From Streptomyces sp. NBC_01788 (GTDB lineage Bacteria; Actinomycetota; Actinomycetes; Streptomycetales; Streptomycetaceae): DNA of 64,000 nucleotides. Made by a program: the position numbers and the translations under genes. This document shows positions 19,293 to 29,465 of the stretch, piece by piece. Each line of letters starts with the position of its first letter. Position 1 is the first letter of the stretch. The notes beneath the pieces were generated by a model, which saw only the letters and a program-made list of their open reading frames with translations, did no database searches and was not told the origin of the DNA. The stretch is from assembly GCF_035917575.1 (NCBI RefSeq), contig NZ_CP109090.1, positions 2,542,001 to 2,606,000 on the forward strand, read 5' to 3'.

Positions 19293-20366
19293 TCAGCCGC
19301 AGCAGTCCGTCTCCAGGCCGCGCGGCAGGCGGTCGCCCGCCGCGAAGACCGTGCAGGTGGCCTCGTGGCCGCCGAGCGCGGCCACGGCGAGGAGGAGGGA
19401 GCCGGCGGTCCACGTGGTCAGTTCGCGGGGCCACACGGCCTCGTCCTCGAAGACGTAGCCCGTCCAGTACAGGCCGGTGTCCGCGTCGCGCAGGTGCTGG
19501 ATGGACTGGAGCACGGACAGGGCGTGGTCGGACTCGCCCACCGCCCAGAGCGTCAGGGCGAGTTCGGCCGATTCCCCGCCCGTCACCCACGGGTTGGGGA
19601 CGACGCAGCGCACCCCGAGTCCGGGCACCACGAAGCGGTCCCAGCCCGCCGCGATGCGCGCCTTGGCCTCCGTGCCGGTCAACGCGCCGCCCAGTACCGG
19701 GTAGTACCAGTCCATGGAGTAGCGGTCCTTGTCGAGGAACCGCTCCGGGTGCGCGCGGATCGCGTGGCGGAGCGCGCCGACCGCCAACTCCCAGTCGGGT
19801 TGGGGTTCTTCACGCTGCTCGGCGATGGCCAGCGCGCAGCACAGCGCGTGGTGGACCGAGGAGCACCCGGTCAGCAGCGCGTCCGCGGTGTCCGTGCCGT
19901 CGTCCTCCCGCTTCCAGCCGATCTGCCCCCCGGGCTGCTGGAGGCGCAGCACGAACTCGATCGCGGCGTACACGACGGGCCACATGCGGTCCAGGAAGGT
20001 GTCGTCGCCGGTCGAGAGGTAGTGGTGCCAGACCCCTACGGCCGTGTAGGCGACGAAGTTGGTCTCCCGGCGGCGGTCGGTGACGTCGTCGTGCGCACCG
20101 TCCGCGTAGGCCGCGTACCAGGAGCCGTCGTCGAGCTGGTGGCGGGCGAGCCAGGCATAGGCGCGCTCGGCGGCCTCGTGCTCGCCGGCCGCGTCCAGGG
20201 CCATCGCCGCTTCGACGTGGTCCCACGGGTCGAGGTGGTGCCCGCGGAACCAGGGGATCGCCCCGTCCGGCCGCTGGGCGGCGAGTATGCCGCGTACGGT
20301 CGCGGCGGCCTGCCCGGCGGTGAGGACCCCGGGCAGGACGAGGTGTTCTGTCCGGGGAGTCGTCAC
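19293..20366 (-). CDS. Alpha/alpha toroid (prenyltransferase/glycosidase-like) protein
   Basis: 357 residues built of paired helices with repeated motifs (ILAAQRPDGAIPWF, LARHQLDDGSWYAAY, QPGGQIGWK) typical of the (alpha/alpha)6 barrel seen in squalene/prenyl cyclases and GH15-like glycosidases. Often annotated as prenyltransferase, but no DxDD or zinc ligands for those activities are seen; a carbohydrate-active role would fit its partners. It is the last gene of the operon glycosyltransferase - methyltransferase - toroid, with a GTGA overlap to the methyltransferase. It ends near two cysteines (LETDCCG). GTG start. Confidence 0.8.
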   Translation of the reverse strand: MTTPRTEHLVLPGVLTAGQAAATVRGILAAQRPDGAIPWFRGHHLDPWDHVEAAMALDAAGEHEAAERAYAWLARHQLDDGSWYAAYADGAHDDVTDRRRETNFVAYTAVGVWHHYLSTGDDTFLDRMWPVVYAAIEFVLRLQQPGGQIGWKREDDGTDTADALLTGCSSVHHALCCALAIAEQREEPQPDWELAVGALRHAIRAHPERFLDKDRYSMDWYYPVLGGALTGTEAKARIAAGWDRFVVPGLGVRCVVPNPWVTGGESAELALTLWAVGESDHALSVLQSIQHLRDADTGLYWTGYVFEDEAVWPRELTTWTAGSLLLAVAALGGHEATCTVFAAGDRLPRGLETDCCG

Positions 20367-21115
20367 GTGGCGGCCGCCTCGGCGCGGCCGGCCGTGGCGG
20401 GCAGGTGCGGCTTGGTCGCGTACGCCACGAAGCTCTTGCCGATGAGCGGGTTCAGCGCCTGCTCTGCCATCCGGGTGGCCAGCGGCTTCTTCATGATGTC
20501 CCAGACCAGCAGCTTGTGGTAGGCGCGCACCGGCAGGACCTGGTCGTTGTCGACGCCGAAGGCGCACTTCAGCCACCAGTACGGCGAGTGCAGCGCGTGC
20601 GCGTGGTGGGTGCCGTAGGGCTTGAGGCCCGCCTCGCGCATTCTGGCGAGGAGTTCGTGGGCCCGGTAGATGCGGATGTGGCCGCCCTCCACCTCGTGGT
20701 AGGCGTCGGACAGGGCCCAGCAGACCTTCTCGGGGCCGTAGCGCGGCACGGTGACCGCGATCCGCCCGCCGGGCCGGAGCACCCGGACCATCTCGGCGAG
20801 GACGCCCTTGTCGTCGGGGATGTGCTCCATCACCTCGGAGATGATGACGACGTCGAAGGAATCGTCGGGGAAGGGCAGCGCCAGCGCGTCGCCCTCCATG
20901 GCGGTCGCGGTCGCCCCTTCCGGCGCCTCCCCGGCCTCCTTCATCGCCGCGAACCACTTGGCGACCTCGCGGATCTCCTCGCCGTTGCGGTCCAGCGCCA
21001 CGACCCGGGCCCCGCGCCGGTAGCACTCGAACGCGTGCCGGCCGGCGCCGCAGCCGAGGTCCAGCACGCGGTCGCCCGGGGCGAGCGGGAACCGGGAGAA
21101 GTCGACGGTCAGCAC
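20363..21115 (-). CDS. Class I SAM-dependent methyltransferase
   Basis: 250 residues with motif I GDRVLDLGCGAGRHAFECYRRGARVVALD (~14-42), an acidic motif EGDALALPFPDDSFDVVIISEVMEHIPD (~75-102) and the strand VLRPGGRIAVTVP. This is the Methyltransf_11 type. GTG 21113-21115 is chosen as start; it overlaps the end of the glycosyltransferase gene by 7 bp. Close association with a glycosyltransferase suggests methylation of a sugar, polyketide or lipid-linked glycan, but the acceptor is unknown. Confidence 0.88.
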   Translation of the reverse strand: MLTVDFSRFPLAPGDRVLDLGCGAGRHAFECYRRGARVVALDRNGEEIREVAKWFAAMKEAGEAPEGATATAMEGDALALPFPDDSFDVVIISEVMEHIPDDKGVLAEMVRVLRPGGRIAVTVPRYGPEKVCWALSDAYHEVEGGHIRIYRAHELLARMREAGLKPYGTHHAHALHSPYWWLKCAFGVDNDQVLPVRAYHKLLVWDIMKKPLATRMAEQALNPLIGKSFVAYATKPHLPATAGRAEAAAT

Positions 21116-22527
21116 GTGGCCCTGCTTTCGCGGTTGAGTTCGGCGTCGGTCGTGGTGGGGCCGGTCCCCGCGGGGGCGGCGGCCGCTGCGGGGCTGTCCG
21201 CGCGGGAGCGGGCGAGGGCCTCGCGGTACCGGGCCACGGTCCCCTCGGCGGCGCGGGCCCAGGTGAAGTGCCGCAGGACCCGCTCGCGCCCGGCCCGGCC
21301 CAGCCGGAGACGCAGCTCCGGGTCTCCCAGCAGCCGGCCGAGCGCCACGGCCAGCGCCCCGGCGTCGCCCGGCGGCACCGCGAGGCACGTCTCGCCGTCG
21401 CGTCCCGCGACCTCGGGGACGGCGCCCCCGGTCGTGGCGACCAGCGGGGTGCCCGTGGCCATGGCCTCGGCGGCCGGCAGGGAGAAGCCCTCGTACAGCG
21501 ACGGCACGCAGGCGACCTCGGCGGAGCGGACCAGGTCGACCAGTTCGGCGTCCGAGATGCCCTTGACGAACTCGACGGCGTCTTCGAGGCCGTGGCGTGC
21601 GACGGCCTGCGCGACCGGGCCCCGCTCGGGCCGTTTGCCGACGACGACGAGGTGTGCGGCGGGGTGTTCGGTGCGCGCCTTCGCCAGCGCCTCGATGAGG
21701 AACACCAGCCCCTTGAGGGGCACGTCCGCGCTGGAGGTGGTCACGATCCGGCCGGGCACCTGCCGCACGGCCGGATCGGGTGAGAACAGGTCGGTGTCGG
21801 CGCCGATGTGCACGACGTGGACGCGGTCCTGGCGTACCCCGAGGTGGTCGACGATCTCCTGGCGGGAGGTGCCGGAGACGGTGAGCACGGAGGGCAGCCT
21901 GCGTGCGACGCGCTTCTGCATGCGGGTGAAGGCGTACCAGCGCCGCAGGGACCAGCGCCGCTGCCATCCCTCGGCGGCGTCCAGCTCCAACCGCCGGTCC
22001 ACGGTGATGGGGTGGTGGATGGTGGTGACCAGAGGCGCGCCGATGTTCCCCAACAGCCCGTATCCCAGGGTCTGGTTGTCGTGGACGATGTCGAACTCCC
22101 CGCGCCGGGTGCGCAGATGGCGGCGGGCGCGCAACGAGAAGGTCAGCGGCTCGGGGAAGCCGCCGGTCCACATGGTGGCGACCTCCAGCGCGTCGATCCA
22201 GTCGCGGTACTCGTCGCGCGCGGGGGTGCGGAAGGGGTCCGGCTGCCGGTAGAGGTCCAGGCTCGGCAGTTCGGTCAGCCGCAGCCGGCCGTCGTGGCCG
22301 TCGCCCGCGATGTCGGCGAGCGTGTCGAGGACGGGGTACGGCTGGGCGGCGATCACCTCGACCCGGTGGCCGAGGCGGGCCAGTTCGCGCGAGAGGTGGC
22401 GTACGTAGACGCCCTGGCCGCCGCAGAACGGGTTTCCCTTGTAGGTGAGGAGCGCTATGCCGAGCGGTCGCTCGCCGTCCGCGGCCAGGTCCGCCGGGGA
22501 CCCCGCCTGACTGGGCTCAGCGGTCAC
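21109..22527 (-). CDS. Glycosyltransferase family 4 (GT-B)
   Basis: 472 residues. The N-terminal half begins IALLTYKGNPFCGGQGVYVRHLSRELARLGHRVEVI, a typical nucleotide-sugar transferase strand-loop; the C-terminal half has the donor-site ladder IGADTDLF, VVGKRPERGP, and the EX7E motif PSLYEGFSLPAAEAMATGTPLVAT. It is first in a three-gene operon. The GTG at 22525-22527 has AGGGGG six bases upstream and is preferred over the ATG 12 codons earlier (22563), which has no ribosome-binding site. A KstR-type operator lies about 55 bp upstream, so the TetR protein encoded next door probably represses this operon. Confidence 0.88.
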   Translation of the reverse strand: MTAEPSQAGSPADLAADGERPLGIALLTYKGNPFCGGQGVYVRHLSRELARLGHRVEVIAAQPYPVLDTLADIAGDGHDGRLRLTELPSLDLYRQPDPFRTPARDEYRDWIDALEVATMWTGGFPEPLTFSLRARRHLRTRRGEFDIVHDNQTLGYGLLGNIGAPLVTTIHHPITVDRRLELDAAEGWQRRWSLRRWYAFTRMQKRVARRLPSVLTVSGTSRQEIVDHLGVRQDRVHVVHIGADTDLFSPDPAVRQVPGRIVTTSSADVPLKGLVFLIEALAKARTEHPAAHLVVVGKRPERGPVAQAVARHGLEDAVEFVKGISDAELVDLVRSAEVACVPSLYEGFSLPAAEAMATGTPLVATTGGAVPEVAGRDGETCLAVPPGDAGALAVALGRLLGDPELRLRLGRAGRERVLRHFTWARAAEGTVARYREALARSRADSPAAAAAPAGTGPTTTDAELNRESRATC

Positions 22528-22581
22528 TCCGGGCCCCCTTCTGGCTGCACTGTCCCGCGACATTACGCCGGGACGCTAATC

Positions 22582-22595: not shown

Positions 22596-22734
22596 GACTT
22601 GATCGTTCAGGAGGTTCCGAATCTACCGGCAGGTAGCCACGCGGTGAGCAGCGGATCGGGTGATTCGCGCCACGGCCCGCGCCATGCCCGCGGTCCGGCC
22701 CCCTGCCCCCACCGACCGTCACGGAACGGGACCC

Positions 22735-23358
22735 ATGCCTGCGCGAGCCAGCACCTCCCGGCCGGCCTCACCGCCCCTCACCGAGCGGCAGGAGGCCCGC
22801 CGCCGACGCATCCTGCGCGCGAGCGCCCAACTGGCCGCCCGGGGCGGCTTCGACGCCGTGCAGATGCGGGAGGTCGCGGAGTCCTCGCAGGTGGCGCTGG
22901 GCACGCTGTACCGGTACTTCCCGTCCAAGGTGCACCTGCTGGTCGCCACGATGCAGGACCAGTTGGAGCGGCTGCACGGCACGCTGCGCAAGAAGCCGCC
23001 GGCCGGGGAGAGCGCCGGTGAGCGGGTGGCGGAGACCCTGATGCGCGCCTTCGGCGCCCTCCAGCGCGATCCCCACCTCGCGGACGCGATGGTCCGCGCG
23101 CTGACCTTCGCGGACCGCAGCGTGAGCCCGGAGGTCGACCAGGTCTCCCGGCAGACCACGGCGATCATCCTGGACGCCATGGGACTTCGGGAGCCCACCG
23201 CCGAGCAGCTCTCGGCGATCCGCGTGATCGAGCACACCTGGCTGTCGGCCCTGATCACCTGGCTCTCGGGCCGCGCCTCCCTCGCCCAGGCGAAGACCGA
23301 CATAGAGACGGCGTGCCGGCTGATCGACCTGACCACGCCTGACGCGGGGCATGAATAG
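22735..23358 (+). CDS. TetR-family regulator, KstR-like
   Basis: 207 residues. The N-terminal helix-turn-helix (RRILRASAQLAARGGFDAVQMREVAESSQVALGTLYRYFPSK) is strikingly like that of KstR, which represses cholesterol and fatty-acid catabolism genes in mycobacteria in response to a CoA thioester. The ligand domain (about 75-200) is also of that type. ATG 22735 is used, with GGAACGGGA upstream; two longer starts (22660, 22684) add a Pro/Arg-rich leader of doubtful value. A KstR-type site lies 140 bp upstream. Its stop is only 7 bp from the 3' end of a TPP riboswitch on the opposite strand, so the gene may also face antisense transcription. Confidence 0.9.
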   Translation: MPARASTSRPASPPLTERQEARRRRILRASAQLAARGGFDAVQMREVAESSQVALGTLYRYFPSKVHLLVATMQDQLERLHGTLRKKPPAGESAGERVAETLMRAFGALQRDPHLADAMVRALTFADRSVSPEVDQVSRQTTAIILDAMGLREPTAEQLSAIRVIEHTWLSALITWLSGRASLAQAKTDIETACRLIDLTTPDAGHE

Positions 23359-23654: not shown

Positions 23655-23884
23655 GGCCGGTAGAGTGACCGGGTCGTCATCACACCCGTTCGGGGGGAAG
23701 CCGGTGGAAATCCGGCGCTGACCCGCAGCCGTGAACCGCCCGCGAGGGCGGCGAGCCGGAATGCCCCGGGCGGAATGTGACCGGCTCATGTGCTCGGCGG
23801 ATCCGCCGGCGCATCGCACCGTCGAGGTATACGGAGCCGAGCCGCCGGGGTGTCCCGTGCTGTCCGGCTCCCCACAGGGAGAGG
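23655..23884 (+). ncRNA. Cobalamin (B12) riboswitch with ribosome-binding-site hairpin
   Basis: Conserved elements in order: GGGGAAGCCGGTG, then AAATCCGGCGCTGACCCGC (the B12-box region, 23695-23728) and GCGAGCCGGAATGCC (23751-23765). Downstream a short hairpin CTCCC/GGGAG (23868-23872 with 23777+100, i.e. 23877-23881) covers the Shine-Dalgarno sequence GGGAG of the first gene, 12 bp before its ATG. Ligand binding would therefore reduce translation of the downstream uptake operon when B12 is plentiful. Confidence 0.93.
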
Positions 23885-23896
23885 CACCCGCCGATC

Positions 23897-25120
23897 ATGA
23901 ACTTCCGCCGCAGCGCCGCGGCCCTGGCCGCCGCCGTCGTGATCGGCAGCGCGGCCCCCGCCGTCGCTGACACGTCCGCCGCCCCGTCCTCGCCGGCCCT
24001 TCCGGCAGGGCTCTACGGCACGACCGACCCCCAGTACGACGGCGTGTGGCGGCAGTCCCTCGCGCTGCTCGCACAGCACACCGTGGGCGTGCGGCCCGCC
24101 GCCAAGGGCGTGGACTGGCTGGCCGGACAGCAGTGCGCCGACGGCTCCTTCGCGGCCTACCGCGCCGAGCCGGGCAAGGCCTGCGACGCCAAGGTGATGG
24201 TCGACACCAACAGCACCGCCGCCGCCGTGCAGGCCCTCGCCGCGCTCGGCGGCCACGACACGGCGGCCGGCAAGGCGGTGTCCTGGCTGAAGTCCGTGCA
24301 GAACAAGGACGGCGGCTGGGGATACATGCCCGGCGGGTCCAGCGACGCCAACTCGACCTCGGTCGTGATCGGCGCGCTCGCCGCGGCCGGACAGAAGCCG
24401 GAGAGCGTCGTCAAGGACGGCAAGTCCCCCTACGACGCCCTGCTCGCCTTCGCCCTGCCGTGCTCGGGTGACGGAGCCGGCGCCTTCGCCTTCCAGCCGA
24501 ACAAGAAGGGCAAGCTCGACGCCAACGCCGACGCCACGGCGGCCGCCGTCGTCGCCGCGCTCGGGCAGGGCCTGGCCCCCGAGGCCGGCGGCAAGGGCAA
24601 GGACGCGGGCGGCGCGGCCCGTTGCGAGGACTCCGGCAAGCCCAGCCCCGACCGGGCCGCGGCCAACGGCGCCTCGTACCTCGCGCAGGCCGTCGCCAAG
24701 GACGGTCACCTCACCTCCTCCTTCCCCGGCGCCACCGATCAGCCCGACTTCGGCAACACCGCCGACACGGTCGTCGCCTTCGCCGTGCAGGGCGGTTCCG
24801 CGCAGGCGCAGAAGCCGCTGAAGTGGCTGGAGAAGAACTCCGAGGCGTGGGCGAAGCAGAGCGGTCCCGCCGCCTACGCCCAGCTGGTCTTCGCGGCCCG
24901 CGCGGCCGGCACCGACCCGCGTGACTTCGGCGGTGTCGACCTGATCCAGCGGCTCAACGCCACCGGACCGGCTCCCCAGGCCGCCGAGGGCAAGGACGCC
25001 ACGGACTCCGCGAAGAGCGGCTCCCCCTTCGGCCTCTGGTGGACCATCGGCGTCTTCGCCGTCGCGGGCGTCGGCATCGGGTTCCTGCTGAGCGGCCGGA
25101 AGAAGAAGGGGCAGTTGTGA
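23897..25120 (+). CDS. Secreted, membrane-anchored alpha-toroid protein; probable cobalamin-capture protein
   Basis: 407 residues: signal peptide 1-25 (MNFRRSAAALAAAVVIGSAA, cleavage near VAD), an alpha/alpha barrel ~40-360 with prenyltransferase-type repeats (VDWLAGQQCADGSFAAY, VSWLKSVQNKDGGWGYMPGG, ASYLAQAVAKDGHL, LKWLEKNSEAWAKQ), a short linker, and a C-terminal membrane helix followed by Arg/Lys (LWWTIGVFAVAGVGIGFLLSGRKKKGQL). The animal B12 binders transcobalamin and intrinsic factor share this alpha6-alpha6 barrel. It is the first gene behind the cobalamin riboswitch and overlaps the next gene (GTGA). Two cysteine pairs could form disulfides. The B12-binding role is inferred from fold and riboswitch; no catalytic motif is seen. 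Confidence 0.82.
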   Translation: MNFRRSAAALAAAVVIGSAAPAVADTSAAPSSPALPAGLYGTTDPQYDGVWRQSLALLAQHTVGVRPAAKGVDWLAGQQCADGSFAAYRAEPGKACDAKVMVDTNSTAAAVQALAALGGHDTAAGKAVSWLKSVQNKDGGWGYMPGGSSDANSTSVVIGALAAAGQKPESVVKDGKSPYDALLAFALPCSGDGAGAFAFQPNKKGKLDANADATAAAVVAALGQGLAPEAGGKGKDAGGAARCEDSGKPSPDRAAANGASYLAQAVAKDGHLTSSFPGATDQPDFGNTADTVVAFAVQGGSAQAQKPLKWLEKNSEAWAKQSGPAAYAQLVFAARAAGTDPRDFGGVDLIQRLNATGPAPQAAEGKDATDSAKSGSPFGLWWTIGVFAVAGVGIGFLLSGRKKKGQL

Positions 25121-25758
25121 CCCGCCGGCTCCGGGCGCTGTGCGCACCGCTGCTCGCCGCCGCGCTCCTGCTGGTGGCCGGCGCCGGCCAGGCCCAGGCC
25201 ACCGGCTACCGGTACTGGTCCTTCTGGGACCGCGACGGCGGGAAGTGGGTGTACGCCACCGAGGGCCCGTCGACGGCGCGTCCCTCCGACGGTGACGTGC
25301 AGGGCCTGCGCTTCGCGGTGAGCGAGGACTCCCAGGACGCGAGCAAGCCGCGCGGGACGGCCGACTTCGCGGCCATCTGCGCGAAGACGCCCGCCGAGAA
25401 GGGCAGCAAGCGGGTGGCACTCGTCCTCGACTTCGGCGTCCAGGCGGACGCCCCGGCGGGCGAGACCCCGCCGGCGCCGCGCACGGAGTGCGCCCGGGTG
25501 CCGTCCGACGCGACCACCGCCGAGGCCCTGGCGGCCGTCGCGAAACCGCTGCGGTACGACACCAACGCCCTGCTGTGCGCCATCGCCGGCTACCCGCGGA
25601 AGGGCTGCGGCGAGCAGGTGGCGGCCGGCAAGACGGAGCAGCCTGCCAAGGACGAGCCGCACGCGGGCCCCTCGGTGGGCCTCCTCGCGGGCGGTGCCGT
25701 GGTGGTCGTACTGGCCGCGGCAGGCATCTGGCAGGCGCGGCGGCGCAGGGATGCGTGA
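25117..25758 (+). CDS. Secreted membrane-anchored protein of the B12-riboswitch operon
   Basis: 213 residues: signal peptide 1-28 (VTRRLRALCAPLLAAALLLVAGAGQAQA), a ~150-residue extracellular domain starting GYRYWSFWDRDGGKWVYATEGP, and a C-terminal membrane helix (VGLLAGGAVVVVLAAAGIW) with a basic tail QARRRRDA. Several conserved Trp/Tyr residues and three cysteines (AICAKT, TECARV, LLCAIAGYPRKGCG) suggest a compact ligand-binding domain. The family (SCO2324-like in Streptomyces, as I recall it) has no assigned role. Overlapping both neighbours, it very probably works with the toroid protein at the cell surface in cobalamin uptake. Confidence 0.8.
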   Translation: MTRRLRALCAPLLAAALLLVAGAGQAQATGYRYWSFWDRDGGKWVYATEGPSTARPSDGDVQGLRFAVSEDSQDASKPRGTADFAAICAKTPAEKGSKRVALVLDFGVQADAPAGETPPAPRTECARVPSDATTAEALAAVAKPLRYDTNALLCAIAGYPRKGCGEQVAAGKTEQPAKDEPHAGPSVGLLAGGAVVVVLAAAGIWQARRRRDA

Positions 25759-26887
25759 CGCCGTGCGGAGCCGCGGACGGGCGGGCCGCGCCGGCGGCGC
25801 ACCCGCCCGCGGCTCCGCCGGTGTCCACGCGGGCGCCTGGTGGCTGTGGGCCCTGGCCCTGGGCACCGCGGCCACCCGCACCACCAATCCCCTGCTGCTC
25901 GGCCTGCTGCTGGCGGTCTCCGGCTACGTCGTCGTGAGCTGCCGCCCCGACACGCCCTCCGCGCGGTCCTACACCGCCTTCGTCAGGCTCGCCCTCGCCG
26001 TCCTCGTCATCCGCCTGGTCTTCGCCGTCGTGCTCGGCTCGCCCATCCCCGGCTCGCACGTGCTCGTCTCCCTGCCCGAAGTCCCGCTGCCGCACTGGGC
26101 GCAGGGCATCCGCCTGGGCGGCCGGGTCACGGCCGAGGCGGTCGTCTTCGCCCTGTACGACGGGCTGAAGCTGGCCACGCTGCTGGTGTGCGTCGGCGCG
26201 GCGAACGCCCTCGCCGCGCCCGCCCGGCTGCTCAAGTCCCTGCCCGGCGCCCTGTACGAGACCGGGGTCGCCGTCGTCGTCGCGCTCACCTTCGCCCCGC
26301 ACCTGGTCGCCGACGGCCGGCGCCTGCGGGCCGCGCGCCGGCTGCGGGGCCGTCCCGACCGGGGCGTCCGCGGCCTGGTGCAGGTCGGACTGCCGGTCCT
26401 TGAGGGCGCGTTGGAGCGTTCCGTCGCGCTCGCCGCCGCGATGGACGCCCGCGGCTACGGCCGTGCGGCCGAGGTCGCGCCCGCGGTCCGCCGCACCACC
26501 GCCGTGCTCACGCTCGGCGGTCTGCTCGGCGTCTGCGCCGGGACGTACGGGCTGCTCACCGCCGAGGGCGGCACCTACGGACTGCCGGTGCTGCTCACCG
26601 GGGTCGCCGCCGCCCTGGCCGGACTGTGGCTCGGCGGGCGCCGCTCCCCGCGCACCCGCTACCGCCCGGACTCCTGGAACGCGCGCTCCTGCCTGGTCGC
26701 CGGGTCGGGCGCGCTGGTCGCGGCCCTGCTGGCGCTCGCCGCCGCCCGCGACCCCCAGGCCCTGCACCCGGGCGTGGTCCCGCTCGTCGCGCCCACTCTT
26801 CCCCTGTGGCCCGCCGCCGCCGTACTCCTCGGTCTGGCCCCCGCGTTCGCCGCACCCGCGAGTCCCGCCCCCAAGGAGCCGTCGTGA
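25751..26887 (+). CDS. ECF transporter T component (EcfT/CbiQ family)
   Basis: 378 residues. After a basic N-terminus there are about five to seven membrane helices. The coupling segment between them shows the EcfT hallmark AMDARGYGR (about 232-240), preceded by the basic RAARRLRGRPDRG loop; the two short Ala-Arg-Gly signatures contact the ATPases. The ATG start overlaps the previous stop by 8 bp. The C-terminal extension adds extra helices (LVAALLALAAARDPQ, WPAAAVLLGLAPAFA). It is the energy-coupling membrane part of the importer with the ATPase and S component that follow. Confidence 0.9.
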   Translation: MRDAVRSRGRAGRAGGAPARGSAGVHAGAWWLWALALGTAATRTTNPLLLGLLLAVSGYVVVSCRPDTPSARSYTAFVRLALAVLVIRLVFAVVLGSPIPGSHVLVSLPEVPLPHWAQGIRLGGRVTAEAVVFALYDGLKLATLLVCVGAANALAAPARLLKSLPGALYETGVAVVVALTFAPHLVADGRRLRAARRLRGRPDRGVRGLVQVGLPVLEGALERSVALAAAMDARGYGRAAEVAPAVRRTTAVLTLGGLLGVCAGTYGLLTAEGGTYGLPVLLTGVAAALAGLWLGGRRSPRTRYRPDSWNARSCLVAGSGALVAALLALAAARDPQALHPGVVPLVAPTLPLWPAAAVLLGLAPAFAAPASPAPKEPS

Positions 26888-28581
26888 TCCGCTTCGAGGA
26901 TGTCTCCGTCACCTACGACGGGGCGGTGGAACCCACCGTCCGCGGCGTCGACTTCGAGGTGCCCGAGGGTGAACTCGTCCTCCTCGTCGGCCCGTCGGGC
27001 GTCGGGAAGTCCACCGTGCTGGGCGCGGTCAGCGGACTGGTGCCGCACTTCACCGGCGGCACCCTGCGCGGCCGGGTCACCGTGGCCGGCCGGGACACCC
27101 GCACCCACAAGCCGCGCGAACTCGCCGACGTCGTCGGCACCGTCGGGCAGGACCCGCTGTCGCACTTCGTCACGGACACCGTGGAGGACGAACTCGCCTA
27201 CGGCATGGAGTCGCTGGGCCTGGCCCCGGACGTGATGCGGCGGCGCGTGGAGGAGACCCTGGACCTGCTGGGCCTGGCCGGCCTGCGCGACCGCGCCATC
27301 GCCACCCTGTCCGGCGGCCAGCAGCAGCGGGTCGCGATCGGCTCGGTCCTCACCCCGCACCCGAAGGTCCTCGTCCTGGACGAGCCGACCTCGGCGCTCG
27401 ACCCGGCCGCCGCCGAGGAGGTCCTCGCCGTCCTCCAGCGGCTCGTGCACGACCTCGGCACGACGGTCCTCATGGCCGAGCACCGCCTGGAGCGGGTCGT
27501 CCAGTACGCCGACCAGGTCGTCCTGCTGCCCGCCCCGGGCGCCGCCCCGCTGCTCGGGCCCCCCGCGGACGTCATGGCCGTCTCCCCGGTGTATCCGCCG
27601 GTGGTGGACCTGGGCCGCCTCGCGGGCTGGTCCCCGCTGCCGCTCACCGTCCGCGACGCCCGCCGCCGGGCCACGGACCTGCGGCAGCGGCTGGACGGCC
27701 GGGAGCCCGCACGCCCCGGGACGGCACCGGATACGAGCCTCCCGGCCCCCGCGCCCCGTTCGGAGCCCCGTCCGGCGCCCCGGTGGCGGCTGCGCCGCGC
27801 CCCCGCCGCCGAGCCCGTCCCGGCGGGCGCGCCCGTGGCCGAGGTCCACTCCCTCGGCGTCCGGCGCGCGGGTGTCCAGGCCCTGCGGAACGTCGACCTG
27901 TCCTTCGCACCCGGCGAGACCGTCGCCCTCATGGGCCGCAACGGCGCCGGGAAGTCCACGCTGCTCGGCTCGCTCGTCGGCCTGGTCCAGCCGTCCGCCG
28001 GGCGGGTCCGGGTCGGCGGCGCCGTCCCGCACCGCACCACGCCCCGCGAACTGGTGCGCCGGGTCGGGCTCGTCCCGCAGGAGCCGCGCGACCTGCTGTA
28101 CGCCGACACGGTCGCCGCCGAGTGCGCGGCCGCCGACCAGGACGCGCAGGCCGCGCCCGGCACCTGCCGCGACCTGGTCCGCGAGCTGCTGCCCGGCGTC
28201 GGCGACGACACCCACCCCCGCGACCTGTCGGAGGGCCAGCGCCTCGCGCTCGCGCTCGCCGTCGTGCTCGCCGCCCGCCCGCCCCTGCTGCTGCTCGACG
28301 AGCCGACCCGCGGCCTCGACTACGGCGCCAAGACCCGTCTGGTCGCCCTGCTGCGCGCGCTCGCCGCCGAGGGACACGCCATCGTGCTCGCCACGCACGA
28401 CGTCGAACTGGCCGCCGAACTCGCCCACCGGGTCGTGCTGCTCGCCGAGGGCGAGGTGATCGCCGACGGTCCGACGGCCGAAGTGGTGGTGTCCTCACCC
28501 TCCTTCGCCCCGCAGGTCACCAAGATCCTCGCCCCGCAGCGGTGGCTCACCGCCACCCAGGTCCGCGAGGCGCTGGCATGA
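26884..28581 (+). CDS. ECF transporter double ATPase (A-A' fusion)
   Basis: 565 residues with two ABC ATPase domains. Domain 1: Walker A GPSGVGKST (36-44), signature LSGGQQQRV (142-150), Walker B VLVLDEPTSALDP (162-174), switch His in MAEHRLE. Domain 2 (from ~320): Walker A GRNGAGKST, signature LSEGQRLAL, Walker B LLLLDEPTRGLD, switch His ATHDVELA. A Pro/Arg/Ala-rich linker (~265-320) joins them. A single fused protein replaces the separate EcfA and EcfA' found in firmicutes. GTG start, GTGA overlap with the T component, ATGA overlap with the S component. Confidence 0.95.
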   Translation: MIRFEDVSVTYDGAVEPTVRGVDFEVPEGELVLLVGPSGVGKSTVLGAVSGLVPHFTGGTLRGRVTVAGRDTRTHKPRELADVVGTVGQDPLSHFVTDTVEDELAYGMESLGLAPDVMRRRVEETLDLLGLAGLRDRAIATLSGGQQQRVAIGSVLTPHPKVLVLDEPTSALDPAAAEEVLAVLQRLVHDLGTTVLMAEHRLERVVQYADQVVLLPAPGAAPLLGPPADVMAVSPVYPPVVDLGRLAGWSPLPLTVRDARRRATDLRQRLDGREPARPGTAPDTSLPAPAPRSEPRPAPRWRLRRAPAAEPVPAGAPVAEVHSLGVRRAGVQALRNVDLSFAPGETVALMGRNGAGKSTLLGSLVGLVQPSAGRVRVGGAVPHRTTPRELVRRVGLVPQEPRDLLYADTVAAECAAADQDAQAAPGTCRDLVRELLPGVGDDTHPRDLSEGQRLALALAVVLAARPPLLLLDEPTRGLDYGAKTRLVALLRALAAEGHAIVLATHDVELAAELAHRVVLLAEGEVIADGPTAEVVVSSPSFAPQVTKILAPQRWLTATQVREALA

Positions 28582-29465
28582 CGGCCCGCCCCGCCGACGC
28601 GAAGACCCGTCCCGCCGAGGAGAAGGTACGCCCGGCCGGCGCGAAGCCCCGTCCCCGGGTGCGGCCCGTCCGTCTCGGCCCCCGGTCCCTCGCCGCGCTC
28701 GCCCTGGTCAGCGCGGTCGGTGTGGCCGCGTTCGGCTGGCCGTTCCTCGCCCCGCCCGCCTCACAGCTCAGCGCGCACGCGCAGGACGCGCCCTGGCTGT
28801 TCGCGGGTCTGCTCGTGCTGCTCGTCGCCGTCGTCACCGCGACGATCTCGGAGTCCGGCCTCGGCCCGAAGGCCGTCGCCATGCTCGGCGTGCTGGCCGC
28901 GACCGGGGCCGCGCTGCGCCCGATCGGCGCCGGGACGGCCGGAATCGAGCCCATGTTCTTCCTCATGGTGCTGAGCGGGCGGGTGCTCGGGCCGGGCTTC
29001 GGGTTCGTCCTCGGCTCGGTGACGATGTTCGCCTCCGCGCTGCTCACCGGCGGGGTGGGCCCGTGGATGCCGTTCCAGATGCTCGCCATGGGCTGGTTCA
29101 CCATGGGCGCGGGGCTGCTGCCGGGCCCGGACCGGCTGCGCGGACGCGCGGAACTGCTGCTGCTCGCGCTCTACGGCTTTCTGGCCGCCTTCGCCTACGG
29201 CACCGTCATGAACCTCGCGGGCTGGCCCTTCATGGGCACCCTCGCCTCCTCCATCGCCTTCGACCCGCACGCGGACATCGCCGCCAACCTGGCCCGGTTC
29301 GTGGCGTACTGCCTGGCCACCTCGCTCGGCTGGGACCTGGGCCGGGCCTCGGTCACCGTGGTCCTGACCCTCGTACTCGGCCACGCCGTCCTGCGGGCGC
29401 TGCGCCGGGCCACCCGCCGGGCCGCCTTCGAGGCCCCGGTCACCTTCGACGCACCCTCGCCGTGA
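28578..29465 (+). CDS. ECF transporter S component, probable cobalamin-specific
   Basis: 295 residues: a Lys/Arg/Pro/Ala-rich cytoplasmic N-terminus (~35 residues) followed by about six membrane helices. The central segment GFVLGSVTMFASALLTGGVGPWMPFQMLAMGWFTMGAGLLPG is characteristic of ECF substrate-binding proteins; this subgroup (CbrT-like) was assigned to cobalamin on the basis of B12 riboswitches. The ATG overlaps the end of the ATPase gene. It ends the five-gene operon. Substrate assignment comes from the riboswitch and context; the sequence alone would fit other vitamins. Confidence 0.88.
   Translation: MTARPADAKTRPAEEKVRPAGAKPRPRVRPVRLGPRSLAALALVSAVGVAAFGWPFLAPPASQLSAHAQDAPWLFAGLLVLLVAVVTATISESGLGPKAVAMLGVLAATGAALRPIGAGTAGIEPMFFLMVLSGRVLGPGFGFVLGSVTMFASALLTGGVGPWMPFQMLAMGWFTMGAGLLPGPDRLRGRAELLLLALYGFLAAFAYGTVMNLAGWPFMGTLASSIAFDPHADIAANLARFVAYCLATSLGWDLGRASVTVVLTLVLGHAVLRALRRATRRAAFEAPVTFDAPSP

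Follow-up and report, generated by a model that had tools for sequence, protein, structure and literature searches.

Animal transcobalamin and intrinsic factor consist of an alpha/alpha barrel and an extracellular beta-grasp domain, and in the animal protein vitamin B12 (cobalamin) is sandwiched between the two (PMC1796856). Bacterial beta-grasp proteins of the transcobalamin type, often accompanied by toroids and encoded in operons that contain CbiO and CbiQ genes, were described by Burroughs et al. in 2007 and proposed to scavenge B12 or a precursor (PMC1796856). ECF-CbrT of Lactobacillus delbrueckii, an energy-coupling factor (ECF) transporter, carries out ATP-driven uptake of cobalamin; its ECF module is predicted to be common to eight S components, and no extracellular partner is described in the available part of that report (PMC5997447). 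The present analysis concerns an operon at 23655-29465 of a 64,000-nucleotide stretch (the window, to which all positions refer) of Streptomyces sp. NBC_01788, whose chromosome is a single contig of 8.27 Mb. It encodes a toroid, a second secreted protein (hereafter the partner) and an ECF transporter. Sequence comparisons make it likely that this operon specifies a B12-repressed importer of B12 (cobamides) with a split transcobalamin-like receptor. The elements of the operon are listed below.

23694..23766, + strand: cobalamin riboswitch aptamer core (RF00174, 40.1 bits, E 1.1e-06)
23897..25120, + strand: secreted, C-terminally anchored alpha/alpha toroid of the SCO2321 family (NF053823, 607 bits; model predicted local distance difference test score, pLDDT, 85)
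25117..25758, + strand: secreted, C-terminally anchored partner of the SCO2322 family with GPS-CTERM tail, GTG start (NF040672, 236.8 bits; pLDDT 88.8)
about 25751..26887, + strand: ECF T component, CbiQ family (PF02361, 26.6 bits, cut-off 25)
26884..28581, + strand: fused ECF A-A' ATPase (ABC_tran, 191 bits, two stretches)
28578..29465, + strand: ECF S component, CbrT-like (PF12822, ECF_trnsprt, 32.4 bits, cut-off 30.7)

The gene starts were taken from the sequence, that of the T gene being approximate. The riboswitch exceeds the gathering score of the covariance model (31.5 bits) and is thus a member of the family. The initial annotation of this DNA had described five genes with overlapping ends behind a cobalamin riboswitch, namely two for secreted and C-terminally anchored proteins followed by ECF T, a fused A-A' and S. 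Coordinates and families bear out this layout, and both secreted proteins begin with a signal-like stretch and end, as read from the sequence, in a hydrophobic stretch followed by basic residues.

Like transcobalamin and intrinsic factor, the operon combines an alpha/alpha barrel with an extracellular beta-grasp domain. Unlike animal transcobalamin, which is one chain, the two are anchored proteins from two genes; both are apparently permuted, the toroid is optional and nearer to bacterial terpene cyclases, and the pair is coupled to an ECF transporter. Secreted beta-grasp proteins, frequent toroids and operons with CbiO and CbiQ are shared with the SLBB and DUF4430 systems (PMC1796856), from which the locus differs in that its SCO2322 family is permuted and its pair split. 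With ECF-CbrT it shares a homologous S component, whereas its A-A' is fused and encoded in the same operon. The idea that transcobalamin of animals and B12 receptors of bacteria share an origin thereby takes concrete form, as domains that are fused in animals are separate anchored proteins here. By score, the window proteins are members of the NCBIfam families SCO2321, SCO2322 and GPS-CTERM.

According to the initial annotation, no experimental description of such a two-protein receptor for an ECF transporter was known. Scavenging of B12 by beta-grasp proteins and toroids beside CbiO and CbiQ is already a published proposal (PMC1796856); what is new is the split, permuted form, and no literature search paired circular permutation with transcobalamin. 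The main text of PMC1796856 has no word beginning with permut, circular or Streptomyces, and in the available part of a later survey of the beta-grasp fold circular permutation is mentioned only for the E1 UFD domain (PMC1949818). Of six papers that mention DUF4430, one deals, by its title, with B12 binders, those of gnathostomes (PMC4350170). In the literature searched, which did not cover preprints and most subscription journals, no mention of SCO2322 or GPS-CTERM was found, SCO2321 and SCO2323 to SCO2325 occurred only in a transdermal-delivery context, and no bacterial transcobalamin-like protein was found together with cobalamin and ECF.

The evidence for a permuted partner comes from its predicted fold and, decisively, from natural relatives. 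SCO2322 is an NCBIfam family named without a function; PF28005 is the Pfam family that covers it in the protein table. The permuted beta-grasp domain comprises residues 29-168 and is modelled confidently by AlphaFold (blockwise confidence 92 to 98 across residues 31-170). The C-terminal domain of transcobalamin has the order strand-strand-helix-hairpin-strand-strand-strand (PMC1796856, PMC1949818). In the partner model this order (strands 1-2, helix, hairpin, strands 3-5) is not followed: three strands lead (28-40, 43-46, 61-69), then come two strands (97-105, 122-129), a helix (134-141) and two short strands (145-147, 153-156). Read from the second block onward, the strand order of the partner equals that of the transcobalamin domain. 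The sequential fold searches Foldseek and VIA-align gave no convincing match with the partner model among the families listed. A new fold was considered and rejected, since permutation explains the failure of sequential searches.

Relatives of the partner with the halves in opposite, canonical order are encoded in related operons, and by this comparison the partner is a circular permutant. Twenty such loci were collected, from 17 of the 18 sub-cut-off genomes of one search (G491 was left out) and 3 of the 23 sub-cut-off genomes of the SCO2322 survey. In its natural order the profile of these 20 proteins aligned with the unswapped SCO2322 profile over 47 columns (score 93); with the half-swapped SCO2322 profile it aligned over 101 columns (score 151, E 1e-26, one comparison). 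A rotation scan of SCO2322 cut points gave a broad peak with its top inside the linker that joins the halves. Column shuffling reduced the swapped score from 157 to at most 86 when applied to the N-half and to at most 97.6 when applied to the C-half (100 trials each). On one protein of genome G516 the NCBIfam SCO2322 model itself matches in swapped order, 61-140 first and 5-61 directly after. All 10 canonical-order relatives scanned with this model score under its cut-off and match at E 2e-5 or better, 3 of them in two stretches. A separate C-half match stands directly before the N-half in 5/20 loci, only matches with their own score over 9 bits being counted; in the remaining loci the order of the halves rests on profile alignment. 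The loci had been picked for a weak match to the partner, mostly to its N-half, so that more independent evidence comes from the C-half and its position.

The same relatives join SCO2322 to DUF4430 and thereby place the partner with the transcobalamin-type beta-grasp proteins. Compared with the DUF4430 profile, the canonical-order relatives reached a score of 40.7 (probability 89, 107 columns). The controls stayed far lower, at most 20.6 in 500 column shuffles, 8.8 for the reversed profile, at most 20.1 for five unrelated profiles and 24.8 with the halves swapped. These comparisons argue for common ancestry of the partner domain with the transcobalamin/DUF4430-type beta-grasp superfamily (SLBB, transcobalamin clade). 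The Pfam model of DUF4430 (PF14478) matched neither the window partner nor any of the 10 canonical-order relatives, and DUF4430 was absent from the 25 families listed, of 28 in all, for 41 relatives. When SCO2322 and DUF4430 profiles were compared directly, 0/300 shuffles reached the score of the C-half, a strong result for that half. The DUF4430 hidden Markov model (HMM) gave mean scores of 5.8 bits on 110 swapped partner sequences, 4.1 on native and 4.2 on N-half shuffled ones, and at E < 0.01 it matched 2/110 swapped partners and 4/550 N-half shuffles; such a scan of single sequences is too weak to decide.

The tail of the partner (25666-25749) matches GPS-CTERM with 31.5 bits (cut-off 28), and the AlphaFold model places a helix at residues 187-212. 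By a simple hydrophobicity rule, 37 of 41 partner sequences carry a C-terminal membrane segment, while one of the four without it has a lipoprotein-like signal. The anchorless partners (L042, L044, L062, L073) all come from family f21, in four genomes of 1.3 to 2.2 Mb. The three without a lipoprotein-like signal seem to be soluble or held by the signal stretch; another genome of this family (L058) keeps the anchor.

SCO2321, the family of the toroid, is likewise an NCBIfam name without a function, and both ends of the toroid model are of low confidence. In sequence as well as fold its best relatives are terpene cyclases, and in Foldseek human transcobalamin (2bb5) came only at rank 31 (E 8.2e-4). 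The initial annotation tied the toroid to transcobalamin by its barrel; neither sequence nor fold ranking upheld a specific likeness. The connection to transcobalamin stands, and the comparisons support that it runs chiefly through the partner and not through the toroid.

The toroid also looks circularly permuted relative to the toroids of canonical-order operons when their sequences are compared. All 20 toroids beside SCO2322 in a set of 40 genomes (described below) are colinear with the toroid profile in one stretch. Among the 17 beside canonical-order partners, 15 match the C-terminal part first and then about 30-300; the order is ambiguous in two (L216, L220). The swapped toroid profile scored 402 over 270 columns and the unswapped one 280 over 171, and the rotation scan peaked at the boundary between these two parts.

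Of the 393 genomes of the class, 161 have an SCO2322 match at E 0.001, and the cut-off is exceeded in 138 of these. From these 138, 40 were chosen for spread, none of them Streptomyces. A riboswitch match lies 5' of the SCO2322 gene on the same strand, 160 to 1825 bases away, in 37/40 genomes; 16 of the matches are over the gathering score and 21 are at 22 to 31 bits. Such a recurrence is not ascribable to chance. The distance count used 42 riboswitch matches, those on other contigs or far away being excluded, and in the three misses (G252, G114, G331) no such match was present on the contig of the partner. The distances are bimodal, 160-293 bases in 17 loci without an intervening toroid and 1139-1825 bases in 20 with the toroid in between. 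The partner has the T gene next to it in 33/40 loci and the toroid gene next to it in 20/40. The 20 genomes that lack a toroid beside the partner were searched throughout with the SCO2321 model; 18 of them gave no match and 2 gave only weak ones, and the positive controls were recovered (6/6). Thirty further loci from Streptomyces all have toroid, partner and T together. Among 80 named loci, as counted from the listing, the partner is followed by a T gene in 75; of the other five, three stretches end within 360 bases, one has 893 bases left and L194 has no T gene in a full stretch.

Similar surroundings were seen for the canonical-order partners, where neighbours were counted by eye from listings, as they were for the DUF4430-type loci. 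In 19/20 a riboswitch precedes the partner on its own strand, 394 to 2092 bases away (10 of the 19 over the gathering score). T and A-A' matches occur on 18/20 stretches, those of L220 lying on the opposite strand, and the toroid on 17/20. In L206 and L208 only a short distance separates riboswitch and partner, and the stretch contains no toroid match. From these sequences the toroid seems to be optional in the canonical-order branch too. The initial annotation tied the secreted genes to B12 riboswitches, and they were not often found apart from them, as the counts of 37/40 and 19/20 show.

Canonical DUF4430 genes were found in 26 of 149 genomes of the phylum Actinomycetota. Of 20 such stretches, 17 carry a B12 riboswitch (12 of these over the gathering score), 14 carry T, 15 carry A-A' (over 290 bits) and 10 a toroid. 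L108 has the full set, its riboswitch being followed by genes for a secreted beta-propeller, a DUF4430 protein whose start is signal-like, T, A-A', S and a toroid that ends in a hydrophobic tail. The first gene after this riboswitch (L108:3574-6255, + strand) encodes a secreted PQQ-like beta-propeller protein (PF13360). DUF4430 and SCO2322 over its cut-off occur together in only 1/26 DUF4430 genomes, a Streptomyces (G035), in which the canonical DUF4430 gene (L124) stands behind a weak riboswitch match (27.1 bits); one further DUF4430 genome, G429, has a canonical-order relative.

The partner is thus the constant member of these loci and the toroid an optional one. A surface toroid acting first, as the initial annotation had it, is unlikely as a general route, and the toroid was rejected as the main B12 receptor in general, being absent from half of the loci. 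Since the toroid is optional and the partner constant, core binding of B12 probably falls to the beta-grasp partner, over which the toroid would close by analogy with transcobalamin. The isolated beta domain of human transcobalamin has been crystallised with cobalamin and with cobinamide, and assembly of the alpha and beta parts depends on cobalamin (PMC5599065). These findings fit a partner able to act without a toroid, and an order in which it binds B12 before the toroid closes.

The transporter is probably one for B12, because a profile built from 18 S components of such operons (6 of them from DUF4430-type operons) matches chain A of 6FNP, the deposited structure of ECF-CbrT from L. delbrueckii, with E 4.1e-18; this was the sole PDB match up to E 10. 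Import of cobalamin and cobinamide by ECF-CbrT has been demonstrated experimentally (PMC5997447), and CbrUVT is counted among B12 transporters in a survey of gut genomes and in a review (PMC6593275, PMC8123684). Against the ECF_ATPase models the A-A' protein gave 293-298 bits in two stretches, under their own cut-offs of 315-330. Rodionov et al. reportedly predicted in 2009 that CbrT is a B12 component (cited in PMC5997447).

The leader of the operon extends over about 23655-23896. RF00174 has 5 matches in the whole genome, 4 of them above the cut-off, and the riboswitch of the operon is one of these. A hairpin had initially been annotated over the first ribosome-binding site. In predicted folds of the window leader this site, that of the toroid gene, is only partly paired, with a mean unpaired probability of 0.44, which bears out the annotation in part; the values range from 0.11 to 0.57 over 10 leaders, two of which are the window's own. 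The leaders were taken from 9 of the 30 Streptomyces loci, and conservation of the small hairpin was not apparent by eye across the 10. Translational control of the operon by the riboswitch is plausible on the basis of these predictions.

In the proposed mechanism, scarcity of B12 would allow the riboswitch to permit expression of the operon, and the membrane-anchored beta-grasp partner would catch B12 outside the membrane. Where a toroid is present it would close over the partner, so that B12 is sandwiched between the mouth of the barrel and the beta-grasp domain. The S component, which is CbrT-like, would then take B12 from the toroid-partner pair and be turned over by the ECF module with ATP. 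The minimal system would consist of partner and ECF transporter, the toroid being an add-on expected to raise affinity or selectivity. The proposal offers a testable role and mechanism for two families without an assigned function, of which SCO2322 is mostly riboswitch-linked in the sampled genomes.

An extension of this proposal is that both receptor subunits, and not the transporter, were permuted in one lineage, and that the partner binds first, the toroid closes only on bound B12 and the closed pair docks on S. It is put forward tentatively, with the chances leaning slightly against it. If true, the paired permutation would mean that the contacts of toroid and partner, with one another and with the membrane, have a fixed geometry, such that moving the anchoring end of one forced the same change in the other. 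A presumed pair of which both members were circularly permuted in nature, while sister operons retain unpermuted relatives, would also offer a rare opportunity to see how complexes survive rewiring of their chains.

Several observations weigh against parts of this interpretation. In the direct comparison of SCO2322 with DUF4430, 1/300 shuffles reached the score of the N-half with the first DUF4430 set and 18/300 did so with a deeper set; this test of the N-half is only fair, and the doubt is settled by the canonical-order relatives. The DUF4430 profile found as its top PDB match a putative metal-binding protein (3u7z, E 0.0046), with Transcobalamin-2 second at E 0.5, and a single DUF4430 protein as query gave zero PDB matches. 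As the search gave transcobalamin only at this value, the step from DUF4430 to transcobalamin rests mainly on PMC1796856. The toroid is built of repeats, in which a two-repeat register shift is hard to tell from circular permutation, and for this reason its permutation is less well supported than that of the partner. Finally, CbrT alone binds B12 tightly (PMC5997447).

In one alternative the ECF transporter alone imports B12 and the secreted pair has a separate though linked function, for instance retaining B12 at the wall, removing or remodelling its upper ligand, or sorting cobamides. CbrT functions without such partners in L. delbrueckii (PMC5997447), and in 4/40 loci (L047, L052, L054, L065) riboswitch, toroid and partner follow each other without adjoining T or A genes. 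Set against this are the 33/40 loci in which partner and T adjoin and the binding of B12 by a beta-grasp domain of this type in transcobalamin (PMC5599065), and we consider such a division of labour unlikely. A further SCO2322 gene of the L047 genome (G352) lies on contig C14, where it too follows a riboswitch match (30.9 bits).

B12 riboswitches also control uptake of cobalt and of precursors, which counts in favour of import of a B12 precursor or another cobalt compound in place of B12 itself. Cobinamide, moreover, is bound by CbrT and by the transcobalamin beta domain (PMC5997447, PMC5599065), and Streptomyces species are listed as cobamide producers (PMC8123684). This explanation is still less probable, given an S component related to CbrT and family scans of the five operon genes that named neither CbiM nor CbiN.

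An enzymatic role of the toroid as a terpene cyclase, with its place beside the importer due only to chance, is very improbable in spite of its closest relatives, as the toroid looks secreted and anchored, stands between riboswitch and partner in 20/40 genomes and beside partner and T in 30/30 Streptomyces loci, recurs in 10/20 DUF4430-type loci and, by eye, has no D-x-D-D, the catalytic motif of squalene-hopene and other class II terpene cyclases, in the window sequence. A related toroid, that of the DUF4430-type locus L108, does contain D-P-D-D.

Outside the operon, a second toroid-like reading frame of the prenyltransferase type was noticed by eye in 19293-22563 on the - strand, beside methyltransferase-like and glycosyltransferase-like genes; as far as seen, a link to B12 is not apparent. 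Just 5' of the riboswitch leader lies a gene, also named by eye, for a TetR-like regulator (22660-23358, + strand).

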